The notes under the pieces were generated by a model that did no database searches, was not told where the DNA came from, and was given only the letters and a program-made list of their open reading frames with translations. Below, one piece after another: positions 4,144 to 27,611 of a stretch of DNA of 35,170 nucleotides. The number at the start of each line of letters is the position of its first letter. Position 1 is the stretch's first letter. The DNA lies in the NCBI GenBank assembly GCA_902799985.1, contig CADCCR010000052.1:1-35170 (forward strand), in the 5' to 3' direction. The DNA comes from an uncultured Bacteroidales bacterium. GTDB taxonomy: Bacteria > Bacteroidota > Bacteroidia > Bacteroidales > Bacteroidaceae. A program made the translations under genes and the position numbers.

Positions 4144-5676
4144 ATGAGAGAAGAGAACAAACGGATAGCGAAGAACACACTTATAGTCTATGCCAGACTG
4201 ATAATCACCACATTATTGGGTCTGTTGTCTTCGCGCTTTGTGCTTGCAGCGCTGGGTGCTTCAGACTATGGACTGTACAATGTTGTGGGCGCCACCGTCA
4301 TCATGTTTTCCTTCATCACGAGTGCCCTCTACAACACAACCACACGCTTCATCAACTACGAGCAAGGGAAAACCGACGGCAACGTCAATCGTGTTTTCAA
4401 CATGAGCCTTGCCATTCATGTCTGCTTTGCAATCGTAGCGCTGTTAATATTGGAGTCGGGGGGCGTTTACTACATACATCATTACCTGAATGTGGCGGCG
4501 GGAAAAGAAGCGGACGCGATGTTTGTCTTCCAAGTTTCCACCGTCGTGACTTGCCTAAGCCTGATAAGCGTACCATTCAACAGCCTGTTCATCGTCTATG
4601 AAGATTTCCGCACCTTGGCAATCATCGACATACTGGGCGCAATAGCGAAGTTTGCATTGATACTGGCACTGCTGTATTATGGAGGGAATCTCCTGCGCTT
4701 CTATGCGCTGAGCATGGCGCTTGTCACAGCTTGCATGTCGCTCTCCTATTTCCTCCTGAGCCGCTGGAGATGGCCCGCCACCACCCGCCTCAATCCCATT
4801 AAGGACAAAAGCAAATACAAGGAAATCCTGACATACAACAACTACAGCCTGTTAGGTGCGGCAGCATTGATATTCAGGAATCAAGGCAGCAACATGGTCA
4901 TCAACTACTTCTTCGGCACCATCGTCAACGCAGCCTACGCCATTTCCTATGCCGTGCAGAACTACGTCATCACCTTTGTCGGCAACTTCGACATAGCATC
5001 GGCTCCGCAAATCACGCAGAATGTCAGTCGCGGCGACATGGATAGGACGATATTCCTGACATCCTCCACTTGCAGGATATGCATACTTCTGACGTTGCTG
5101 TTGCTGTTCCCCATCTACTGCGAACTGCCCTACCTCCTACATCTGTGGCTAGGCGACAACGTACCGGAAGGAGCTGTCACGTTCTGCAAATGCACCCTGC
5201 TGGTGGCGCTGGCATCTGCCACGTCCGGCGGCGTAACCCAACTCATCCGGGGAACAGGACGGCTAAAGTGGTTCACCATACAATTCACCGTGCTCTATGT
5301 CCTGGCTCTCCTCGTTAGCATTGCTCTCTACAACGCAGGCTTCCCGCCATACACCGTCATCGTGGCATACTTCCTGGCCGACATCGCCAGCCGATGCCTC
5401 CAAATATTCCTGCTGCACCGGTACACAAACCTTGACATTAACAGCTTCGTACAGAAGTCTTATCTGCGACCTCTTGGCGTGTTCATCTGCGGCGTGGCGT
5501 ATGTTCTGGTTTCAGAACATTTCAACATAGAGCACGACCTGTGGCACATAGCGAATTTCATGATAGCCATTCTGTTTATGGTCATATCCATTTATTGTGT
5601 TGGACTCTACAAGGAAGAAAGAGGCATCATCACATCTCACATAAAGCATTACATTACACGCGACAAAGGGAAATGA
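4144..5676 (+). CDS. Wzx-like polysaccharide flippase (MOP superfamily)
   Basis: This is a 510-residue integral membrane protein with many hydrophobic segments spread over its whole length. The N-terminus (KNTLIVYARLIITTLLGLLSSRFVLAALGASDYGLYNVVG) is the typical start of Bacteroidota lipopolysaccharide/exopolysaccharide flippases. These are thought to move undecaprenyl-linked repeat units across the inner membrane. It is the first gene of a four-gene operon; its TGA overlaps the ATG of the ATP-grasp gene (ATGA). With the EpsG-like polymerase and Wzz-like protein further along, it fits a Wzx/Wzy route. Transport direction and substrate are inferred from the family and context. Confidence 0.85.
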   Translation: MREENKRIAKNTLIVYARLIITTLLGLLSSRFVLAALGASDYGLYNVVGATVIMFSFITSALYNTTTRFINYEQGKTDGNVNRVFNMSLAIHVCFAIVALLILESGGVYYIHHYLNVAAGKEADAMFVFQVSTVVTCLSLISVPFNSLFIVYEDFRTLAIIDILGAIAKFALILALLYYGGNLLRFYALSMALVTACMSLSYFLLSRWRWPATTRLNPIKDKSKYKEILTYNNYSLLGAAALIFRNQGSNMVINYFFGTIVNAAYAISYAVQNYVITFVGNFDIASAPQITQNVSRGDMDRTIFLTSSTCRICILLTLLLLFPIYCELPYLLHLWLGDNVPEGAVTFCKCTLLVALASATSGGVTQLIRGTGRLKWFTIQFTVLYVLALLVSIALYNAGFPPYTVIVAYFLADIASRCLQIFLLHRYTNLDINSFVQKSYLRPLGVFICGVAYVLVSEHFNIEHDLWHIANFMIAILFMVISIYCVGLYKEERGIITSHIKHYITRDKGK

Positions 5677-6623
5677 ACTTTTCAAGAGTTATATATTATC
5701 TGCGCAACCCGCAGGAGCTTCAGTTTGTCCTGGCATTGAGATATCCAAAACTGTTTTCCGACAAGCAGTTCCTCAAAGTCATCTATCGCAAGCTTATGGG
5801 CTCGGAACTGAATCTGGAATGCCCCCAGACCTTCAGCGAAAAGCTGCAATGGCTCAAACTTTATGACCACAATCCCCAATACACGCAAATGGTCGACAAG
5901 TACGAAGCCAAGAAATACGTGGCGGACATCATCGGCGACGAGTACATCATCCCCACCTTGGCTGTGTACAACAGCACCGCTGAGATTGACCTTGATGCGC
6001 TGCCGGACAGGTTCGTCCTCAAATGCACCCACGACAGCGGCAGCGTTGCCATCTGCAAGGACAAGAAGACTTTCAATAGGGATGAAGCCTTTGCCATGCT
6101 TGAAAGAGGGCTGAAGAAGAATTATTTTTGGGAAAACCGAGAATGGCCCTACAAGAACGTAAAGCCCAGGATTATCGCTGAGACCTACATGGAGGACATC
6201 GGGACCGGAGAACTTCGCGACTACAAGTTCTTCTGTTTTGATGGAAAAGTCAAGGCGTTATTCATCGCCGAGGACAGGCAGGGAGACGAAGAAACGAAGT
6301 TTGACTTCTTCGACGCGGACTTCCATCACCTGGACATCCGCAACGGCCACCCGAATGCAAATGTTCCTCCGGCAAAGCCTCTGTCGTTCGAGAAGATGAA
6401 GGAAATGGCCGAAAGACTGTCGCAAGGCATACCCCATCTGCGCGTGGACTTCTATGAGGCCAATGGCAAAATATACTTTGGCGAACTCACCTTCTCGCAT
6501 TGGAGCGGCTTCACACCCTTCGAACCTGAAGAATGGGACCTGACATTCGGACAATGGCTAAAGCTCCCCTGCCCAAGGAGCGAGCATCCGAATCAGAAAG
6601 GCAAGGACACACTACACGTATGA
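5673..6623 (+). CDS. TupA-like ATP-grasp protein
   Basis: The start is placed at the ATG at 5673 (MNFSRVIYYLRNP), which overlaps the flippase stop; an upstream in-frame ATG at 5541 lies inside the flippase gene and is less likely. The 316-residue protein resembles the TupA-like ATP-grasp family (PF14305) found in polysaccharide clusters: TFSEKLQWLKLYDHNP, DKYEAKKYVADIIGDEYIIPTL, then RFVLKCTHDSGSV (nucleotide-binding strand) and DYKFFCFDGK. Near the C-terminus are RVDFYEANGKIYFGELTFSHWSGF, with the metal-binding acidic residues expected of ATP-grasp enzymes. Members are proposed to ligate amino acids or similar groups to glycans or teichuronopeptides. The chemistry here is inference; no signal peptide is seen, so it is probably cytoplasmic. 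Confidence 0.8.
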   Translation: MNFSRVIYYLRNPQELQFVLALRYPKLFSDKQFLKVIYRKLMGSELNLECPQTFSEKLQWLKLYDHNPQYTQMVDKYEAKKYVADIIGDEYIIPTLAVYNSTAEIDLDALPDRFVLKCTHDSGSVAICKDKKTFNRDEAFAMLERGLKKNYFWENREWPYKNVKPRIIAETYMEDIGTGELRDYKFFCFDGKVKALFIAEDRQGDEETKFDFFDADFHHLDIRNGHPNANVPPAKPLSFEKMKEMAERLSQGIPHLRVDFYEANGKIYFGELTFSHWSGFTPFEPEEWDLTFGQWLKLPCPRSEHPNQKGKDTLHV

Positions 6624-6641
6624 CAGGAAAAAGAAAATCCT

Positions 6642-7403
6642 ATGAACAAGAAAGTAATATATACATGTTTGGTTGGCAACTATGACGTGTTGCGACAACC
6701 ACTGGCAATCGACGAAAGCTATGACTACGTCTGCTTCTCGAATGACATAAAAGAGGACAGAGTCGGAGTCTGGCAGATACGTCCCATCCCCTTCGTACAC
6801 GAAGACAAAGCCCGGCTGTCGCGCTACGTGAAGATACTGCCTCACAGGGCTCTTGAGGATTACGAATGGAGCTTGTGGATGGATGCCAACATCCAGATTA
6901 CGGATAAGGAATTCTATGCGATACTGGACAGCAAGATGGCAGAAGGCGGAACGATATACCAGGTGAACCACTGCCTCCCGCCTTGCGACTGCACCTACGA
7001 GGAGATAAAGTTTGCCTACCTTTGCGGCTTATCAGGGTATCGCAAGACCGTCCGCCAGTACTGGCATCTGAAGAAGAACGGATTCCCCACCCACTGGGGA
7101 CTGTTCGAAAACAACATCATACTGAGGAAGCACCTCGACCCGCAGGTGAGGAAAGTGTCGGAAGAATGGTGGACAGAATTCATGACATACACGAAGCGAG
7201 ACCAGTTCAACCTCATGTACGTATACTGGAAGAACAACCTTAGGCCAGGATTGCTGTTACCGCCCGACTGCAACACACGCAATGTGGAGTACTTGAAGTG
7301 GCACTTCCACAAGGTCCAGCAGAAAGACACATTCATCTTCCGCCAGCGTCACCGCATAAGGAAATACTTGTCCTCTATCTTCAAAGTGCTCGACAGAATA
7401 TGA
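6642..7403 (+). CDS. DUF616-type glycosyltransferase-like protein
   Basis: This 253-residue protein has no signal peptide or membrane segment. The order YTCLVGNYD, YDYVCFSND, RLSRYVKILPH and WSLWMDANIQI (D81) matches the DUF616 group (PF04765), a glycosyltransferase-like fold in which WMDAN supplies the DxD-like metal/sugar-nucleotide site. A late segment has GLFENNIILRKH and WW(T)EF, also usual in the group. It sits 18 bp after the ATP-grasp gene and its TGA overlaps the ATG of the next gene, so it belongs to the operon. The donor sugar cannot be assigned. Confidence 0.75.
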   Translation: MNKKVIYTCLVGNYDVLRQPLAIDESYDYVCFSNDIKEDRVGVWQIRPIPFVHEDKARLSRYVKILPHRALEDYEWSLWMDANIQITDKEFYAILDSKMAEGGTIYQVNHCLPPCDCTYEEIKFAYLCGLSGYRKTVRQYWHLKKNGFPTHWGLFENNIILRKHLDPQVRKVSEEWWTEFMTYTKRDQFNLMYVYWKNNLRPGLLLPPDCNTRNVEYLKWHFHKVQQKDTFIFRQRHRIRKYLSSIFKVLDRI

Positions 7404-8470: not shown

Positions 8471-8479
8471 GTAACAAAG

Positions 8480-8881
8480 TGGAGCTGGAGGGGATTGAAC
8501 CCTCGTCCAAACAGGGACATCCCAGGCTTTCTACACGCTTATTCCGGACTTCATTTTCGTGCACTGGCAAGACCCGGACCACCAACCACTGCCTTATTCT
8601 CTAAGAGCTTCATTCGGGGATAGAGACGTCTCCCCGGACTATTTCCGATTTTCCTGCACCGCTTTGCCAGACGCTTCGGAACAACAGCTTCTGAGCGATG
8701 TCTCGTCTCAGCACCTGGTGCCGAGATTAGGCCAGTAACCTACTGTGCTTCGGTTAGGCAGCGAGAGCGTAAGTGTTTTCGCCAATTAAATTGTCGGAAG
8801 TCAGAGATTAAAGAGAGCGGCCGCCAACTCTCTGCGTGCTTACACTGGCACCTCATCCTGCTGTCAAATCCAGTCAGCCCC
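8480..8881 (-). ncRNA. ssrA: tmRNA (ssrA)
   Basis: On the minus strand the 5' end reads GGGGCTGACTGGATTTGACA, the standard tmRNA start, and the 3' end reads GGGTTCAATCCCCTCCAGCTCCA, the T-arm and acceptor. GGGGCTG pairs with CAGCTCC as the acceptor stem. The next genomic bases are CTT, so the terminal CCA is not encoded. The length is 402 nt. The tag frame at 8783-8754 reads G-E-N-T-Y-A-L-A-A then TAA, close to the GENNYALAA/GETNYALAA tags of Bacteroidota. It rescues stalled ribosomes with SmpB and tags the product for proteolysis. It has its own promoter (8910-8940) and terminator and runs against the exopolysaccharide genes on either side. Confidence 0.95.
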
Positions 8882-20327: not shown

Positions 20328-21206
20328 ATGAAAAAGTTATTTTCCTTTATCTTTTTGGCACTGCTGCCGATGGTGGCAAGTGCAACTGTCTATGATGCTT
20401 ATGTTAACGGTATCTATTACAACCTTTCGGAAAATGAAGCGTACGTGTCCTACAAGGAATATGATTCCTACGCTAACCAATGCGTACCTGCCTACAGGGG
20501 GAATGTCGTCGTGCCTGCTTCCATCACATACAATGGCAAGACCTACAGCGTGACAAGAATAGGCGGTCATGCTTTTGCTGACTGTAAAGACCTGAAATCT
20601 GTCACCATACCTGAGAGCGTGACGAGCATTGGCTATGATGCTTTTGCAAACTGTAGTGGCTTGACTGCCATTACTATTCCGAGCAGAGTAACATATATCG
20701 GAGAATACGCTTTCTTCAATTGTAGCAACCTGGCTTCTATTACCATTCCTGGGAGCGTGAGAACAATGGGGGTTTTTGCATTCTGTGATTGCAGTAGTCT
20801 GGCCACTGTCACTATTCTGGACGGCATATCCTACATTGACGAGTCAACCTTCAAGTCGTGCTCCAGTCTGACCACTGTCAACCTTCCGAGCAGCATCACA
20901 CGCATCTGCACCGAAGCCTTCAAAGATTGTTCCAGTTTGGCTTCCATTACTATTCCCGAGAGTGTAACAACCATTCAAAATGGCGCGTTCCGTGGTTGCA
21001 GTGCCTTGACCTCTGTCACCATCCCCGAAGGCGTTTCGGAAATCGCCAACCAGACATTTGCTGACTGTAGTGCTCTGACCACAGTCGCAATTCCAAGCAC
21101 CATGACAGCCCTTAATTCCTGCGTTTTCCAGAACTGTAGCAGTTTGTCAGACATCTATTGTTATGCAGAAAATGTCCCAGGAACAAAAGGAGAGAGACAC
21201 ATTTGA
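20328..21206 (+). CDS. BspA-type leucine-rich repeat surface protein, N-terminal fragment (frameshifted)
   Basis: This frame has a signal peptide (about 1-19, ending ASA) and then at least seven LRR_5/BspA repeats of about 23 residues with the pattern AFxxCSxLxxxTIPxSVTxIG. It breaks at a short A-run near 21182-21186: the frame ends in KGERHI, while the next frame continues ERDTFDDTPIATAALHVP. A nearly identical passage (ADNVPETEELAFESTPIASARLEVP) occurs intact further along the downstream frame, which shows how the two parts should join. BspA-like proteins are surface adhesins in oral and gut Bacteroidota. The break is a net +1; a sequence error, a mutation or slippage are all possible. Confidence 0.85.
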   Translation: MKKLFSFIFLALLPMVASATVYDAYVNGIYYNLSENEAYVSYKEYDSYANQCVPAYRGNVVVPASITYNGKTYSVTRIGGHAFADCKDLKSVTIPESVTSIGYDAFANCSGLTAITIPSRVTYIGEYAFFNCSNLASITIPGSVRTMGVFAFCDCSSLATVTILDGISYIDESTFKSCSSLTTVNLPSSITRICTEAFKDCSSLASITIPESVTTIQNGAFRGCSALTSVTIPEGVSEIANQTFADCSALTTVAIPSTMTALNSCVFQNCSSLSDIYCYAENVPGTKGERHI

Positions 21207-23976
21207 CGACACCCCCATCGCCACAGCCGCACTCCATGTTCCTATGGCTTCCTTAACAGCTTACCGCTCGACTGCACCTTGGAATGGCTTCGGCTCGGTT
21301 GTGTCTGTTGATGCTCCTCCCTCCAATATCATCTACTTTGCCGATGCCAATGTCAAGGCACTCTGTGTTGCCAACTGGGACACGGACAGCGACGGAGAGT
21401 TGAGCGAGGCCGAGGCTGCGGTTGTAACAGACTTGGGCGAAGTGTTCAAAGGGAATACGGCAATCACCGCGTTTGATGAATTGTGGTACTTCACGGGATT
21501 GACATCCATCAGGGATGAGGCTTTCCGTGAATGCGATGGCCTGACCTCTGTCATTATCCCCGAAAATGTGACAAACATTGGTTCGTCAGCCTTCAGTTTT
21601 TCCGGCTTGACCACTGTCACCATTCCTAATAGTGTGACAAACATCGAATCCAATGCCTTCTATGGATGCGAAAGCCTGACTTCTGCCACCATTTCTAACA
21701 ATGTGACGTGCATCAACAGCGGAGTTTTTGGTGGCTGCACCGCTTTGACATCAATCACTCTTCCCGAAGGTATTCAGGAAATCGGCACTGGGGCATTTGG
21801 CAGTTGCAATGCCCTGACCACCGTTGTAATTCCGAGTTCTGTAACTTCCATCGGTTCCTACGCTTTCCAGGCTTGCAGCAGTCTGGCAACAATCCAATGC
21901 TATGCAGATAATGTGCCGGAAACAGAAGAACTCGCTTTTGAAAGTACACCTATCGCCTCTGCCAGACTTGAGGTGCCGGCAGGTTCTAAGGATTTGTACA
22001 AAACGACTCTGCCTTGGAGCGGTTTCGAGAACATTTGGGCACTAACAATAAAGGTTAACGAGACGACCTTCCCCGATATGAACTTCCGCAGATGGTTACA
22101 CGACACGTCGTTTGGCTATGACTATAGGTTGAAGGAAGAAGAATTAATTGGTGTGGAGAGCATCAAAATAGGAAACTATGGCATTAAGAATTTGACAGGT
22201 ATAGAGTTTTTCCCCGACCTGAAGAGTCTGGATTGCTCCCACAATAAGCTGACTGCGCTTGACCTGTCGGAATGTCCAGGGCTTGAGACAGTAAACTGCG
22301 CATTTAACAATCTTGCTTCGCTCAATATCTCGAAGAATACCTTGTTGACATCGCTGGATTGTTCCCGGAATAGTCCATTGACTGAACTGGATGTGTCGCA
22401 GAACACCGCACTGACATCGCTTGAATGTTCTTATTGCGCCCTGACCATGCTGGATGTGTCGCAGAATACCGCACTGACATCACTGAGCTGTAGAAGTAAC
22501 AAAATGACCATGCTGGACATGTCGCCGAATACCAATCTGACATCGTTGAACTGTGGGGCTAACAAAAGTTTGACCATGCTGAACGTGTCGCAAAATGCTG
22601 CGCTGAAATCGCTGAGCTGTGAATCGAGCAATCTCTCTGAACTATATTTGCCAAAAGGCACGACATTGACATCGTTGAGCTGTCGCAACAACAAACTGAC
22701 GACGCTTGACGTTTCGGGACTTTCTGCACTGCCTTCTTTAAACTGCAATAATAATGCATTAACTTCTATAGACATGTCGGGCTGTACTGCCCTGAAATCC
22801 CTGGACTGCTCTCAGAATAATATGACGACACTTAACATTATAGGGAATCCTGGACTGACTTACATAAACTGTTCAAGTAACAAGCTAACCTCTTTAGATA
22901 TGTCTGGCTGGACAGCACTGACATCATTGAACTGCGGCTCCAACCAGCTGACAGCATTAGATGTGTCGAAGAATACTGCCCTGACAACGCTACAGTGTGG
23001 CTCCAACCAGCTGACATCGCTGAGCTTGTCGAATAACACCGCTCTGTATAGGCTGGAATGTAACAATAACAAATTGACGCGGCTTGATGTGTCGCAATGC
23101 GCCAATCTTCATGCGCTCTATTGCCAGCGGAATCAGATTAAGGATGCCGCCATGGATGCACTGGTGGAGAGTTTGCCGGACTTAACCGGAGACTTGTTTG
23201 TTATTTCCACAGAAGAGGACTGGCCAAGGGAGCAAAACGTGATAACCACCACACAGGTGGCGGCTGCCAACGCGAAGGGCTGGCAAACATACAGCTACGT
23301 CTATGCTTGGGATTTTGACGATTTGAGTCGCTACACTTGGGAGAAATACGCTGGCAGCAGGCCGAATACGGTTGTCGCCTACACCGCAGGAAAAATGGCA
23401 ACAATCATCCTGCCAACGGCACCCGATGCCAGCAAAGGATGGTACTACAGGCTTGACCGCTGCGAGGCGAACAGGATTATCTTCGAGCAGGAGCTACAGC
23501 CCCAAGCACGTACGCCTTACGTCATTGTGCCAAAGGAGGACTTCACCATCGACCTCGGCGAATTTGACTTGTCGGGATTGAGCAGTGATACTGTTTCCGT
23601 CAAAGGCATTCACTTCATCGGCTCGTACATTAGCAGAGTGCTCCCCGCCTTTACGGTAGGGGAAGGATATTTCTATATTGACATCATCGACGCTACACCC
23701 GACTGCCTGATAGCCGAATTTGGCACAGGGAAGTCTGTCGTTGGCGCTCTGCGTGGCTATCTGATAGTGCATTGGGACGACCCCTACAACCCTGGCGGCA
23801 CAAAGGGCCCACAGGAAAAGATGCAGATAGTGCTGAAAGACGATCCAGATGGAAGCCTCACCCCTGCCCCCTCTCCGAGGAGAGGGGAAATCTACGACCT
23901 CAGCGGCAGGAAAATTGTAAATAGTAAATTACCTCGAGGGATTTATATACAGAATGGCAGGAAATTCGTGAAGTAA
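21163..23976 (+). CDS. BspA-type leucine-rich repeat surface protein, C-terminal part
   Basis: The given ATG is probably not a true start; the frame continues the gene from 20328 (joined length about 1215 residues). In order it holds the end of the first LRR block, an EF-hand-like loop (DTDSDGELSEAE), a second BspA LRR block, then about a dozen shorter repeats of the form ALTSLxCxxNxLTxLDVSxNT, of internalin-like type. A non-repeat beta region follows. The end reads SLTPAPSPRRGE (from a palindromic element), then IYDLSGRKIVNSK, then RGIYIQNGRKFVK, a C-terminal module seen on many secreted Bacteroidota proteins, possibly for type IX secretion. The IVNSK residues are themselves encoded by GTAAATA/GTAAATT heptamers. 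Confidence 0.85.
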   Translation: MQKMSQEQKERDTFDDTPIATAALHVPMASLTAYRSTAPWNGFGSVVSVDAPPSNIIYFADANVKALCVANWDTDSDGELSEAEAAVVTDLGEVFKGNTAITAFDELWYFTGLTSIRDEAFRECDGLTSVIIPENVTNIGSSAFSFSGLTTVTIPNSVTNIESNAFYGCESLTSATISNNVTCINSGVFGGCTALTSITLPEGIQEIGTGAFGSCNALTTVVIPSSVTSIGSYAFQACSSLATIQCYADNVPETEELAFESTPIASARLEVPAGSKDLYKTTLPWSGFENIWALTIKVNETTFPDMNFRRWLHDTSFGYDYRLKEEELIGVESIKIGNYGIKNLTGIEFFPDLKSLDCSHNKLTALDLSECPGLETVNCAFNNLASLNISKNTLLTSLDCSRNSPLTELDVSQNTALTSLECSYCALTMLDVSQNTALTSLSCRSNKMTMLDMSPNTNLTSLNCGANKSLTMLNVSQNAALKSLSCESSNLSELYLPKGTTLTSLSCRNNKLTTLDVSGLSALPSLNCNNNALTSIDMSGCTALKSLDCSQNNMTTLNIIGNPGLTYINCSSNKLTSLDMSGWTALTSLNCGSNQLTALDVSKNTALTTLQCGSNQLTSLSLSNNTALYRLECNNNKLTRLDVSQCANLHALYCQRNQIKDAAMDALVESLPDLTGDLFVISTEEDWPREQNVITTTQVAAANAKGWQTYSYVYAWDFDDLSRYTWEKYAGSRPNTVVAYTAGKMATIILPTAPDASKGWYYRLDRCEANRIIFEQELQPQARTPYVIVPKEDFTIDLGEFDLSGLSSDTVSVKGIHFIGSYISRVLPAFTVGEGYFYIDIIDATPDCLIAEFGTGKSVVGALRGYLIVHWDDPYNPGGTKGPQEKMQIVLKDDPDGSLTPAPSPRRGEIYDLSGRKIVNSKLPRGIYIQNGRKFVK
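23855..23887. repeat. GC palindrome inside the LRR gene
   Basis: CCCCTCTCC (23868-23876), GA, GGAGAGGGG (23879-23887), preceded by GCCTCACCCC. In this frame it encodes SLTPAPSPRRGE. The minus-strand SusE/F-like gene has the same element in the same frame at 29855-29888. Confidence 0.8.
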
Positions 23977-23990
23977 TAATAGAACCTTAT

Positions 23991-24157
23991 GAACATCCCT
24001 GACTAGGCCGAAGTACCAGAATCAAGACCTCAGGAAGTACGTCAGTCAGGCAAAGCTTGGATGTTCGCGCACTATACGAAAAAGGGCGCGGACAACATGG
24101 TTGTTGCCTGACGTAGGCTGTCTTGAGCCTTGGTACACTACAACCTCATCCGCGCCC
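23991..24157 (+). ncRNA. Candidate structured leader or small RNA
   Basis: This non-coding stretch can fold in two competing ways. Fold A is a long imperfect hairpin: GTACCA...CAAGAC (24013-24028) with GTCTTG...TGGTAC (24119-24135), TACGTCA/GGCAA with TTGCCTGACGTA, and TGTTCGCGC with GCGCGGACA. Fold B is two domains: GAACATCC (23991-23998) with GGATGTTC (24059-24066), plus CCCTGACT with AGTCAGG inside it; and GGGCGCGGA (24084-24092) with TCCGCGCCC (24149-24157). The last pairing overlaps the 5' arm of the terminator at 24154-24184. No clear promoter box lies directly upstream. It matches no RNA family I can name. 6S RNA was considered because of the long hairpin but not supported. Confidence 0.5.
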
Positions 24158-24189
24158 TCTTTTCAGAAAACTTGAGAAGAGGGCTTTTT
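24154..24189 (+). terminator. Strong intrinsic terminator (possible attenuator)
   Basis: GCCCTCTTTTCAG (24154-24166) pairs with CTTGAGAAGAGGGC as a stem of about 13 bp with two G-T pairs and a loop of about five bases, followed by TTTTT at 24185-24189. The next base starts an ATG (24190). A pairing of 24084-24092 with 24149-24157 would take up the 5' arm, so it could act as an antiterminator. Confidence 0.8.
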
Positions 24190-24669
24190 ATGAAATCATT
24201 CAAACTGATAATGCCTGCGCTCATGGCTGTGAGCCTGCTCGCGTTCTCTGCAACCGAAATAGACGGTATCTACGTATGGAAGGACGGCAATTATACCCGT
24301 TTCAATCTGAACGAGATTACCTTTTCCGACAATAAGATTCGCATTGCCGACACGACTATGAGCGTGGAAGCCATAGACAGCATCACCTTCACGAAGCCAA
24401 CTGATGCTCCACGTTGCGTTGGTCTGCATTGCACGTCGCATTTAAGCCCATTTCTAACATTGATTTACCACATTGCGAGCTACAGCGACACTTTCATAAC
24501 ATTCCTTCTCAAAACACGACGTTGCAACCGTCTAACTTTCCGTAATTTTGTCCTCAGTGAACATAGCGATTATTGTTTGTACAACTTTATGTTTGAGCAC
24601 TATAAAAGTACAACAATTTTCGCTAATCACCAAATTTTCAGACAACTAAATTTCGTCGAACTCACGTAA
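24190..24669 (+). CDS. Small secreted protein with a truncated or degraded C-terminus
   Basis: The ATG at 24190 is chosen over 24130 because a signal peptide begins here (MKSFKLIMPALMAVSLLAFS). The segment GIYVWKDGNYTRFNLNEITFSDN...AIDSITF is a module that usually heads much longer Bacteroidota surface proteins. After SITFTKPTD the sequence turns AT-rich and loses any recognisable pattern, and a TAATTTTG promoter-like box (24543-24550) lies inside it. The frame from about 24405 on is thus probably not true protein, and the gene looks like the head of a lost larger gene. No function is assigned. Its start touches the terminator T-run. Confidence 0.5.
   Translation: MKSFKLIMPALMAVSLLAFSATEIDGIYVWKDGNYTRFNLNEITFSDNKIRIADTTMSVEAIDSITFTKPTDAPRCVGLHCTSHLSPFLTLIYHIASYSDTFITFLLKTRRCNRLTFRNFVLSEHSDYCLYNFMFEHYKSTTIFANHQIFRQLNFVELT
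24522..24550 (+). promoter_or_regulatory. Promoter of the CotH gene pair
   Basis: TTG (24522-24524), 18 bp, TAATTTTG (24543-24550) fits the Bacteroidota pattern and lies 133 bp upstream of the first CotH start. The region between is AT-rich and contains no other obvious site. Confidence 0.45.
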
Positions 24670-24683
24670 GTTTAAGCGTTAAA

Positions 24684-26102
24684 ATGAAAGAAAAATCTTT
24701 TATCATAATTATTGCCCTGCTGTACATTGTTTTGGGGACAGCAGTCTGCCGAGCGCAGACGCTGGAGGAGGTTCTTGGTTACGGGCTTCCCGTCGTGGTA
24801 GTAAATACTGTGAACGGCGAAGAACCCACCTCAACCAGAATCGACCATCCTGCAGGATGCGTCGGGTCAAGCCTTACAGATGTCGTGCCAAAAGAAGGGC
24901 GGATGCAAATCTACAGAGCCGACACACTATGGTATGACAGTGGCGACTACGAGAAAGACAAGTCCGGGATGATAATCAAGCATCGTGGCAACACGTCGGC
25001 AGTCTTCTACCCAAACAAACCCTTCAAACTTACTCTTCAAAAGAAGGCTGACTTAGTAATGACCCCCTACGACGACGACACAGACAGAAGAAGCAAGCAC
25101 TGGGTTCTCCTTAATAGTTCCTTTTCCCTGAATACGATTTATGGCTACTGGCTGGAGACTATGATTGACATGGAATTCCCAACGAGGGAGGAATTCGTCA
25201 ACGTCGTCATCAACAACGACTATCGTGGAATTTACATTCTATCGGAGAATATAAAACGCGCCAACAATCGTGTGGATGTGGATGTAAATGGCGGTTATAT
25301 CATCGAATTGAATGCATATCACTGGAAAGAAACTCTGTCTATCCCTTCGATTTTCACGCGTGTCCTGGCATGGACTTTCAAGTACCCGGAAGTTGATGAC
25401 CTTACAGAGGAAATGGCAGAAGGAATAAGGAGTGACGTTGACCGACTGGAGAAGTCTGCCACCAGCCACGACTATTCTGAGGTGATAGACACCAAATCCG
25501 TAGCTCGTTGGACACTCTTGCAAGACATTTTGAGTACGCATGACCCTGCCGGCACCAACTTATTTGTCGCCAGGAAGAACAGGGATGCTTCCTCTCTGAT
25601 GCGGATGCCCGTTGGATGGGATTTGGCATCATCAATGGAACACATCGACGTATGGTCCAGGACTCATATTGAACCTGGCATCTTCATTCGAAAACTATTT
25701 GACAATCAATTCTGCCAGGATTTCAGCATACAATTCATGAATGAATGGAAACGCGTCAAACAAGCTAAAGTGATGCAACGCATGGCAGAGGCATGTTTGG
25801 CTTTTCCCTCTACAAATCAAGGGCAAGGGTTGAAACTTTCTTATCCACATCATGCCAAGCGATGGGGTACAAAAGTTTACGATGTAGAAAAGATGTCAGA
25901 GGCTGGGGCCAAGTGGTTCACCGACAGGGAACAGCATATAGACTCCCTTATGCAGATACTCAGCGACGAAACGACCTCAATAAGGATGCCAAGAGAGAAT
26001 CCGGCATCGAAGGCTGTCATTAGGAAAGAGATTCGCAATAATGGCATTTACATCATAAAGGACGGCAAGGCCTACTCCCCCGATGGGAGGAGGATAAGAT
26101 AA
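24684..26102 (+). CDS. Secreted CotH-like protein, paralogue 1
   Basis: This 472-residue protein has a signal peptide (to about residue 24) and then TLEEVLGYGLPVVVVNTVNGEEPT, almost identical to the next gene. The CotH kinase-like domain (PF08757) shows in KHRGNTS (99-105), KPFKLTLQKKADL, KHWVLLN, YRGIYILSENI (180-190) and GGYIIELN. The family includes the Bacillus spore-coat kinase CotH, which is an atypical protein kinase; here the target is unknown. The C-terminus is NGIYIIKDGKAYSPDGRRIR, a short form of the IYxxxGR module. The pair with the gene 33 bp downstream looks like a tandem duplication that has diverged. Confidence 0.8.
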   Translation: MKEKSFIIIIALLYIVLGTAVCRAQTLEEVLGYGLPVVVVNTVNGEEPTSTRIDHPAGCVGSSLTDVVPKEGRMQIYRADTLWYDSGDYEKDKSGMIIKHRGNTSAVFYPNKPFKLTLQKKADLVMTPYDDDTDRRSKHWVLLNSSFSLNTIYGYWLETMIDMEFPTREEFVNVVINNDYRGIYILSENIKRANNRVDVDVNGGYIIELNAYHWKETLSIPSIFTRVLAWTFKYPEVDDLTEEMAEGIRSDVDRLEKSATSHDYSEVIDTKSVARWTLLQDILSTHDPAGTNLFVARKNRDASSLMRMPVGWDLASSMEHIDVWSRTHIEPGIFIRKLFDNQFCQDFSIQFMNEWKRVKQAKVMQRMAEACLAFPSTNQGQGLKLSYPHHAKRWGTKVYDVEKMSEAGAKWFTDREQHIDSLMQILSDETTSIRMPRENPASKAVIRKEIRNNGIYIIKDGKAYSPDGRRIR

Positions 26103-26135: not shown

Positions 26136-27611
26136 ATGAAAAAGCTATTTCTCTTCACTATAATATCTTTCTCCATATTCCTGGTATCCAATACTTGCCA
26201 AGCACAAACCCTTGAGGAAGCTCTCGGTTATGGCCTTCCAGTTGTAGTAGTAAACACAGTAAACGGTGAAGAGCCGACAGCCGAACGAGTGGTTGCCCCA
26301 GAGGGGTGCATGGGAAAGAGCATCATAAACGCCACAAAAGTGCCGGGACGCGTAAGGATATACAATCCCGGGGATGCAGAAAACCCCATCTTTGACAGCG
26401 AAGAATACGCCGAGAACATCAGCGGCATGACATTCAAAATTCGTGGCAACACCTCCGCCATGAGACCGAAGAATCCGTTCAAGATAAAGCTGCAGAAGAA
26501 GGCCGACATGCTGATGCGCGGCGACAAGAAATACAATGACAAGGATTGGGCACTAATCAGACCTACTGGTGGCAGCAAACATCTATGCCCCATAGTCACG
26601 ATGATTGGCAACAAGACAACGGAGATACTCCGTGTCTGCGACTGGGTTCCTGCCTGCATGTATGTCAACCTCATTGTCAACGGTGACTTCCGCGGATTCT
26701 ACCTATTGACGGAGACAGTCGAGCGGAACGACAAATGCAGAATCAATGTAGATGAGCAGACAGGCTACATTGCCGAGATAGACCCATACTGGTGGAACGG
26801 TGAGGTTAACTTCGTGGAAAGTCCAATCCTCAGAAATTCCTACAAGTTCACCTTCAAATATCCCGACAGCGACGATATCACACAGGAGCAGCTGGATGCC
26901 TTCAGAGAACACATCGAACTGCTCAATGCATCATTGACAGACGGCACATATCCGCTGTACATTGATGTGGAGAGTTGTGCCCGATGGCTCTTGGCTCACC
27001 AGCTTTTAGGTACACTCGACGCGGGAGGCAGCAACATGTTCATCATCCGCCGCGATGGTCAGTCGAAGCTGCAAATGGGTACGTTGTGGGATTTTGACTC
27101 GGCATTTCTCATTCAAGGCTCCTTTACGCCTATCATGTCCCTGCATTACTTCAGACGAATGCTGCAAGACAGCCCCAACAAGTTGCTGGCAAGCGAGATG
27201 TTCTGGATATGGGAGGCGGAAAAGGAAAGGATTATGACCGAGGTTTACGATTTCCTCGATTCGATGGCTGGTACGGACTTGGCTCTTGCCATTGACTATT
27301 CCACAAAGGCAAACCTCAACAGGTGGCCTGGCAACATGCTGGACGACATGAACACCACGGTCGAGAATCTCAGGCAATGGTTCTCGACAAGGGCTGAGGA
27401 GATTGACGCGTTGCTGGGGACGTTCTGCAGCGGTGACGGCATGGTCTCGGCCAAATCATCCTCTAAAGAGAAGTTCTTTAAGAAGATTGTTCAGGACAAG
27501 CATCTCTACATCGTCCGCGACGGGGAGACTTATTCCGTGGACGGGAGACAGATTCGGGGTGTGGAGAGCCTTCCCCCTATCTCCCGAGGTCGGGCACTTG
27601 GGGGAAGGTGA
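26136..27611 (+). CDS. Secreted CotH-like protein, paralogue 2
   Basis: This 491-residue protein has a signal peptide (to about residue 23) and the same start as paralogue 1. CotH landmarks are KIRGNTS (101-107), NPFKIKLQKKADML, KDWALIRP, FRGFYLLTETVERND (185-199), GYIAEIDPYWW and GTLWDFDSAF, the last giving the acidic residues expected of the metal site. The C-terminus matches paralogue 1 up to YSVDGRQIR and then has about 15 more residues (GVESLPPISRGRALGGR) encoded by a palindrome (27569-27608). This tail overlaps the last 35 bp of the convergent GH31 gene. Confidence 0.8.
   Translation: MKKLFLFTIISFSIFLVSNTCQAQTLEEALGYGLPVVVVNTVNGEEPTAERVVAPEGCMGKSIINATKVPGRVRIYNPGDAENPIFDSEEYAENISGMTFKIRGNTSAMRPKNPFKIKLQKKADMLMRGDKKYNDKDWALIRPTGGSKHLCPIVTMIGNKTTEILRVCDWVPACMYVNLIVNGDFRGFYLLTETVERNDKCRINVDEQTGYIAEIDPYWWNGEVNFVESPILRNSYKFTFKYPDSDDITQEQLDAFREHIELLNASLTDGTYPLYIDVESCARWLLAHQLLGTLDAGGSNMFIIRRDGQSKLQMGTLWDFDSAFLIQGSFTPIMSLHYFRRMLQDSPNKLLASEMFWIWEAEKERIMTEVYDFLDSMAGTDLALAIDYSTKANLNRWPGNMLDDMNTTVENLRQWFSTRAEEIDALLGTFCSGDGMVSAKSSSKEKFFKKIVQDKHLYIVRDGETYSVDGRQIRGVESLPPISRGRALGGR
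27569..27608. repeat. Palindrome shared by two convergent gene ends
   Basis: CCTTCCCCC (27569-27577) pairs with GGGGGAAGG (27600-27608), and CCCGA (27583-27587) with TCGGG (27590-27594) inside. It encodes the last residues of the CotH gene on the plus strand and of GH31 on the minus strand. There is no T-run, but a hairpin between converging genes may still affect termination or RNA ends. Confidence 0.7.

Follow-up and report, generated by a model that had tools for sequence, protein, structure and literature searches.

Control of restriction-modification systems is known to proceed in several ways: the portions of two reviews consulted here describe C proteins, autorepression by the methylase, promoter methylation and antisense RNA (PMC3874152, PMC12707154), and the second also reports antisense RNAs or hairpins that limit access to the translation start of the nuclease (PMC12707154). 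Those portions name no two-state structured leader RNA: in PMC3874152 the term 'riboswitch' does not occur and 'attenuat' and 'leader' occur once each, the latter in a passage on symE, and in PMC12707154 all three are absent. Antisense RNAs are known for the EcoRI and Eco29kI systems, and they address the same regulatory problem as the RNA reported here. It has long been asked how restriction-modification systems can enter a new host without harm and how their activity is tuned.

Three other kinds of RNA invite comparison. The AbiF RNA RCd22 (RF03085) and the RNAs of type III toxin-antitoxin systems resemble our element in that a structured RNA and an intrinsic terminator precede an anti-phage gene; in the RCd22 system this gene follows the terminator without a promoter of its own, according to the part of the report consulted (PMC12373285). 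6S RNA is likewise a long, rod-like RNA of about 200 nt, but our element is patchy in its distribution and is not housekeeping. Attenuators and riboswitches share with it the leader position, a conserved pseudoknotted upstream part and a mutually exclusive antiterminator and terminator. In riboswitches and attenuators, moreover, the platform may swap between termination and sequestration of the Shine-Dalgarno sequence. Our element differs from them in that its targets are mostly restriction-modification genes, and in that it matches no Rfam family: scanning the window (the whole stretch of 35,170 nucleotides analyzed, from an uncultured Bacteroidales bacterium) and 31 related loci with Rfam 15 gave no hit above the gathering threshold on the element.

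In this report, we describe the RNA encoded at window positions 23991-24189, and its relatives. Our main finding is that it is probably a cis-acting leader that controls the next gene through two alternative folds, a reading that rests on comparison of sequences. We regard it as a new class within a known kind, the structured attenuator leader, the surprising part being the link to restriction-modification; to our knowledge, control of restriction-modification by such an RNA switch would be the first of its kind. The first-pass annotation of this DNA, which had taken the stretch for an attenuator or riboswitch, knew of no described RNA of this sequence, and the Rfam result agrees, as does the open-access literature, where we found neither this RNA, nor anything alike, nor leader-RNA control of restriction-modification. 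Permissive Rfam scans returned only weak matches far below threshold; one of these, a PyrG-leader match in locus L142 (L numbers designate individual loci), falls on the terminator region and was taken as chance. 6S RNA had been named as a family whose presence would overturn the attenuator reading, and RF00013 gave no match in the whole genome; this is a weak test, as the model gives a signal in only five of 14 control genomes, none of which is from Bacteroidota, and a diverged 6S RNA could escape it.

The window copy folds far better than shuffled sequences. For positions 23985-24192, RNAfold predicts -74.0 kcal/mol. Two hundred dinucleotide shuffles average -54.6 kcal/mol (sd 4.35), which corresponds to a z-score of -4.45, and one of them is as good. 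All parts lie on the forward strand. A rod is formed by P1a (24012-24018 with 24131-24137), P1b (24022-24028 with 24120-24126) and P2, the 5' side of which (24039-24053) comprises P2a (24039-24044, pairing with 24109-24114) and P2b (24049-24053, pairing with 24104-24108); the 3' strands thus follow one another in the order P2b, P2a, P1b and P1a within 24104-24137. The 5' end of the RNA (ACATCC, 23993-23998) pairs with GGATGT (24059-24064) in the P2 loop, making the helix PKa. The same loop holds a hairpin, P3, whose 5' strand GTTCGCGC (24063-24070) overlaps the end of PKa and pairs with 24086-24093. The latter positions belong to a shared strand, GGGCGCGGAC (24084-24093), which may pair either within P3 or with the 3' strand of a further helix, PKb: here GGGCGCGGA (24084-24092) is perfectly complementary to TCCGCGCCC (24149-24157), the proposed antiterminator. 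The intrinsic terminator hairpin (24154-24184) pairs GCCCTCTTTTC (24154-24164) with GAGAAGAGGGC (24174-24184) over 11 pairs, to which the RNAfold prediction adds two on the loop side to reach 13 bp, and its U-run (24185-24189) touches the ATG at 24190. PKb and the terminator compete because both use 24154-24157. Every helix is intact in the window copy, with energies of -13.3 kcal/mol for P3, -19.3 for PKb and -18.7 for the terminator. The first reading of the sequence had placed the PKb pairing at exactly these coordinates and had noted the terminator with its T-run at the start codon, its 13 bp corresponding to the predicted fold, and the folding that it proposed as a check gave the z-score above; it had missed PKa, the competing P3 hairpin and the restriction-modification context of the family.

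Relatives were collected in several steps. A DNA search of 60 relatives gave two copies (L003 and L004), which together with the window copy served to build a covariance model, R1. Matches to R1 were found in at least 26 of the 139 genomes of the genus, that of the window included, at 27 places scoring above 90 bits and a further four that are weak. A second model, R2, built from 27 sequences, matched in at least 39 of 399 genomes of the family, spread over 13 of its 30 genera (31 of 40 places above 100 bits), and in at least 12 of 393 genomes of the order, where the canonical matches are the window, L092 and L093 only and nine are weak; weak matches make up 9 of the 40 places in the family tally and 9 of the 12 in the order tally, and all of these prevalences are lower bounds because few candidates were scored per genome. 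A pattern scan of named genomes added 115 stretches, 112 of which are model matches (78 of 80 and 34 of 35); the pattern was drawn from the conserved core, so that named loci favor the main subfamily. Most carriers belong to Prevotella and related groups of the rumen and gut, including the isolates Prevotella communis E15-14, Xylanibacter brevis ATCC 19188, Prevotella sp. ne3005 and tc2-28, and Bacteroides sp. ET71; a Duncaniella genome is also among them. With the L003 copy as query, blastn found no match in plasmid and phage records, and a longer version of the pattern gave none in viral contigs; two viral contigs retrieved with a shorter pattern (L035 and L036) were rejected, as they are not model matches.

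The genome-search loci and the 80 pattern-scan stretches make up 108 distinct canonical elements and are the basis of the gene counts, while the other 35 stretches (L183-L217), some of which repeat loci already counted, were model-checked only. No gene was called in two of the 108 (L134 and L118), where the DNA examined ends. The 106 loci used below are distinct by element plus 40 nt, which is not to say independent. One hundred of the 108 elements were aligned (alignment A5), their effective number being about 40 at 85% identity.

In these 100 copies, 92 to 100% of the cells are paired in P1, P2, PKa, PKb, P3 and the terminator. The seven strongest covarying column pairs all belong to P1 and P2; double changes affect all seven pairs of P1a (96.7% of cells paired) and six of the seven of P1b (100%), and the two parts of P2 are paired in 99.8% (P2a) and 97.0% (P2b) of cells. 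For P1, P2 and the terminator (92.0% over its 11 pairs), the alignment was fitted to the structure of the model and leans towards it. It was not fitted to PKa (98.3%), PKb (97.9% over nine pairs) or the seven-pair core of P3 (97.8%), because none of these is in the covariance model. Taken as wholes, the fold that we call ON (P1a, P1b, P2, PKa and PKb) has 98.3% of its cells paired and double changes in 23 pairs, and the fold that we call OFF (P1a, P1b, P2, P3 and the terminator) has 96.7% paired and double changes in 29 pairs, against 35 to 49% paired in a control where partners were slid by one to three columns. None of 500 shuffles matches either fold, in a control that ignores relatedness. 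The earlier proposal of mutually exclusive folds, which a lack of covariation among relatives would have contradicted, is thus strengthened: the covariance model of homologs that had been suggested did retrieve relatives, and compensatory changes recur among them in both folds.

One strand is used by both P3 and PKb, and another by both PKb and the terminator. The first of these sharings can be followed at a single position: alignment position 114 is C in nine of the 100 sequences, and in all nine a G is present at both partners, position 95 in P3 and position 178 in PKb. In the 90 sequences with U at 114, position 95 is A in 44, G in 41 and U in 5, and position 178 is A in 79 and G in 11. When the tree is inferred with the tested columns left out, parsimony counts seven changes at position 114. 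Mean energies over 99 of the 100 sequences are -12.4 kcal/mol for P3, -17.2 for the PKb duplex and -13.2 for the terminator, similar enough to make the three comparable competitors. They are transcribed in the order P3, 3' strand of PKb, 3' arm of the terminator, from which we infer the succession expected of an anti-antiterminator, an antiterminator and a terminator. As PKb overlaps the terminator by only about 4 to 6 nt, the antiterminator would displace it in part.

A C5 DNA methylase is the first gene after the RNA in 72 of 106 loci, and other first genes, examined one by one, encode nucleases of the EcoRII, BstXI and Alw26I types, a MutH-domain protein, proteins matching PADLOC REase_II models, AIPR, an HNH protein or an AAA_5 protein. 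In all, the first genes represent at least eight families unrelated to each other. In L120 and L028 the first protein is presumably an adenine methylase, judging by our own reading of its N-terminus; L123 (TPR repeats) and L092 (DUF2971) carry nothing specific, and the first genes of L158 and L091 have no match in Pfam or PADLOC. Upstream, 84 of 108 loci have an ORF of at least 100 aa within 2 kb, and each Pfam family occurs in at most three of these 84; a C5 methylase is found there once, in L062. (L062 carries, at 5026-7340, a divergent copy lodged inside a restriction operon, between a C5 methylase gene and a type II nuclease gene.) The commonest PADLOC models on this upstream set are the candidate system PDC-S05 (4 of 84) and SoFic (three), so some loci lie within wider defence islands. 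First and upstream genes were called by simple rules, without a gene finder.

The distance from the end of the element to the start codon is at most 3 nt in 64 of 106 loci and at most 70 nt in 101. With start codons so close, polymerase has to read through the terminator to reach the gene, except where there is a promoter within the RNA itself. No shared promoter was located in 100 upstream stretches: a promoter-like TAnnTTTG is present in 23 of them, against 6.2 in mononucleotide shuffles, at scattered positions. Within the genus, a C5 methylase follows at a distance of no more than 4 kb in 20 of the 27 canonical loci. As 138 methylase matches are spread over 65 of the 139 genomes, the RNA serves a minority of them. 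Many of the downstream methylases, of different kinds, begin with a lysine-rich MSKKK or MAKKK right after the U-run, and A-rich codons at their starts perhaps aid initiation where no leader remains.

The 3' end is the variable part of the element. At least four U residues close it in 92 of 107 relatives examined, and several of the other 15 keep a hairpin at the start codon. L029 retains a shorter hairpin without U-run, and L027 has lost the 3' arm of the terminator. In L140 and L132, as read from sequence, the Shine-Dalgarno motif AAAGGAG forms the 3' arm; it precedes the ATG by 7 nt in the former and 11 nt in the latter, and is complementary to a CUCCUUU adjoining the PKb strand. In these two examples, a sequestered Shine-Dalgarno sequence would replace the U-run, which suggests a conserved upstream domain with interchangeable platforms; exchanging a terminator for a ribosome site on one upstream domain is a habit of riboswitches and attenuators. 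Together with the covariation in both folds and the position of the start codon, these variants support the attenuator or riboswitch-like reading made in the initial annotation.

The switch may be pictured as follows. Comparison of the copies indicates a rod, P1a-P1b-P2, presenting a long loop into which the 5' end pairs (PKa), a GC-rich loop strand (24084-24093) that can pair locally (P3) or with the sequence preceding the terminator (PKb), and a PKb that would occupy the base of the 5' arm of the terminator. In the ON state, PKb would form and leave the terminator incomplete, so that transcription would continue and the A-rich region before the start codon would stay open; in the OFF state, P3 would hold the shared strand, the terminator would form, transcription would stop and the start codon would be closed off. 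The usual cargo across Bacteroidales is a restriction-modification operon, with CotH-type genes in the side branch that includes the window.

In the window, the element is preceded by a gene for a BspA-type leucine-rich-repeat protein (21163-23976, forward strand; PF13306 and PF12799) and followed, on the same strand, by an ORF of 159 aa (24190-24669), called truncated in the first-pass annotation, whose start codon touches the U-run and for which no Pfam family was found, and then by genes for two CotH kinase-domain proteins of 472 aa (24684-26102; PF08757, E 3.6e-13) and 491 aa (26136-27611; PF08757, E 9.8e-23). The one C5 methylase detected in this genome sits on another contig. The copy L143 (uncultured Prevotellaceae RUG828) is identical to that of the window at 215 of 216 positions, and the two form a clade with L023 (support 0.97) that has CotH genes downstream throughout, as judged for L143 from identical ORF starts. 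The RNA of the window thus falls within a small side branch associated with CotH genes: the CotH pair noted earlier as its downstream context stands, as a minority among targets that are usually restriction-modification genes. Elsewhere in the window, a tmRNA gene lies at 8477-8881 on the reverse strand (RF00023, 129.7 bits).

This setting raises an explanation for the window copy alone, namely that it is a relic or a borrowed element whose sole remaining role is to terminate the leucine-rich-repeat gene. The stop codon of that gene (TAA, 23974-23976) lies 16 nt ahead of PKa, the first downstream ORF is without a known domain, and a related copy, L033, also placed between a similar leucine-rich-repeat protein and a CotH gene, has shrunk by internal deletion to 94 nt. 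Against it stand the intact helices of the window copy and the CotH genes downstream in its clade, and we consider this explanation somewhat unlikely.

Several distant variants bear on the function of the family as a whole. L094-L097, L030, L034 and L099 match the model weakly and, when read from sequence, keep both P1 and P2 as well as a loop strand that matches the 3' end by complementarity, with a U-run directly after the pseudoknot strand as judged by eye. Where the U-run follows PKb in this way (L094-L097, L030 and L034), PKb would itself be the terminator and the logic would be reversed. Among the neighbors searched are a helix-turn-helix protein, one with a TerB domain and a tubulin-like one, some of them unlinked to restriction. 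These variants may be sRNAs or switches of opposite logic, and they count against a purely restriction-specific function. A weak variant is also present in L064 and L065; in L064 it precedes an operon with a Tubulin_2 protein, for which PADLOC gave no match.

The distant variants, in which the pseudoknot runs into the U-run and some of which stand ahead of unrelated genes, would suit a self-standing sRNA, regulatory or structural in role, with its 3' end at the terminator and with leaky read-through sustaining the restriction gene; so would the stable fold and the full intrinsic terminator present in most copies. Such an sRNA was the alternative offered in the initial annotation, and it is weakened by three features of the canonical copies: the start codon directly after the element in 64 of 106 loci, the strand with two alternative partners, and the Shine-Dalgarno sequence that replaces the U-run in L140 and L132. 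Matches in just 26 of 139 genomes of the genus, mostly beside defence genes, also speak against it, and we judge it improbable.

An attenuator in cis could also be driven by translation of a leader peptide starting from a conserved ATG or GTG in the P2 loop. Of 88 copies, 55 keep the frame from this codon open as far as the end of the element, while the other two frames do so in 16 of 176 cases; in 68 of 86 copies, the start codon is also in phase with a downstream anchor. However, these counts are dominated by one subfamily with one loop length; in a subfamily of 58 sequences variability does not peak at the third codon position (entropies of 0.46, 0.34 and 0.40 for the three positions); only 13 of 86 frames continue into the gene, with phases to the gene of 27, 23 and 36; and in the window the frame, read from the sequence, stops after 16 codons. 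On this mixed evidence, we regard attenuation by a leader peptide as an unlikely, minor alternative.

The gene order, which is that of RCd22-abiF in C. difficile in the part of that report consulted (PMC12373285), could instead point to an RNA antitoxin or a protein-binding RNA acting on the downstream protein, in the layout of type III toxin-antitoxin and AbiF systems. RCd22 and type III RNAs do neutralize the toxin in addition, whereas here the downstream proteins are mutually unrelated (C5 methylases, EcoRII, BstXI and Alw26I nucleases, AIPR, MutH-domain and CotH proteins), and Rfam found no match to the abiF RNA covariance model in the window and 31 loci; the chance that this layout explains the element is slim. 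Slimmer still is that of a folded DNA site for recombination or insertion that collects defence genes, its RNA structure being incidental: the patchy distribution, the one conserved stretch before many different genes and the little that upstream neighbors have in common would fit, but G-U pairs, compensatory changes, two partners for one strand and a terminator at the start codon are features of RNA, and the 25 commonest Pfam families listed for each side include no recombinase family.

The main RNA is often not alone. A second, related RNA of about 255 nt, termed B, lies within 1 kb upstream in 54 of the 101 canonical loci with enough upstream sequence (for example L142:4191-4444, reverse strand); a motif search had found 50 of 101, three of which were removed by eye (L145, L136 and L128), and the other 47, used as BLAST queries, brought the number to 54. 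RNA B has in common with the main RNA, here called A, the P1 motif CTACCAC ... GGCTGTGGTAGGCC, and its 3' end consists of the pseudoknot strand followed by a U-run; after it, in many loci, comes a hairpin (GTTCGC...GGGTGTTTGCGGAC) whose loop, by eye, is able to pair with the pseudoknot strand AAGCACCC. A DNA search with RNA B gave 69 places in 55 of 399 genomes of the family and 12 of 30 genera, 46 of the 69 covering at least 200 of 254 nt. The canonical A element accompanies it in 13 of 30 loci examined, and several of those without A lead, by eye, into methylase-like genes.

We tentatively propose, with less assurance than for the leader itself, that these pseudoknotted leader RNAs form a superfamily, often with two different members in tandem, that constitutes a dedicated layer of restriction-modification control in Bacteroidales; it would move between genomes with restriction-modification systems and would gate the methylase and the nuclease through an RNA switch reading a cellular or infection-linked signal. 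If this is true, a conserved mobile RNA switch would represent a new control layer in a dominant group of rumen and gut bacteria, with a mechanism that is directly testable, and possibly a natural expression switch for gut Bacteroidales.

Two small ORFs accompany these RNAs. The first, of 90 aa (MAKYTxxSHITT...), lies between B and A in 7 of 108 loci, all of which have B (L171:6568-6837 on the reverse strand, L125, L178, L133, L172, L147 and L072); one copy was searched and had no Pfam or PADLOC match, and it is possibly a control protein of the restriction system. The second, a different ORF of 92 to 98 aa (MSSIQDI...), stands ahead of the RNA in L145, L136, L150 and L173. Ahead of it, in L145 and L136, lies a further stretch rich in stems, with the sequence GAAGATATAGTCTG; this stretch had no Rfam hit and looks like part of a group I intron.
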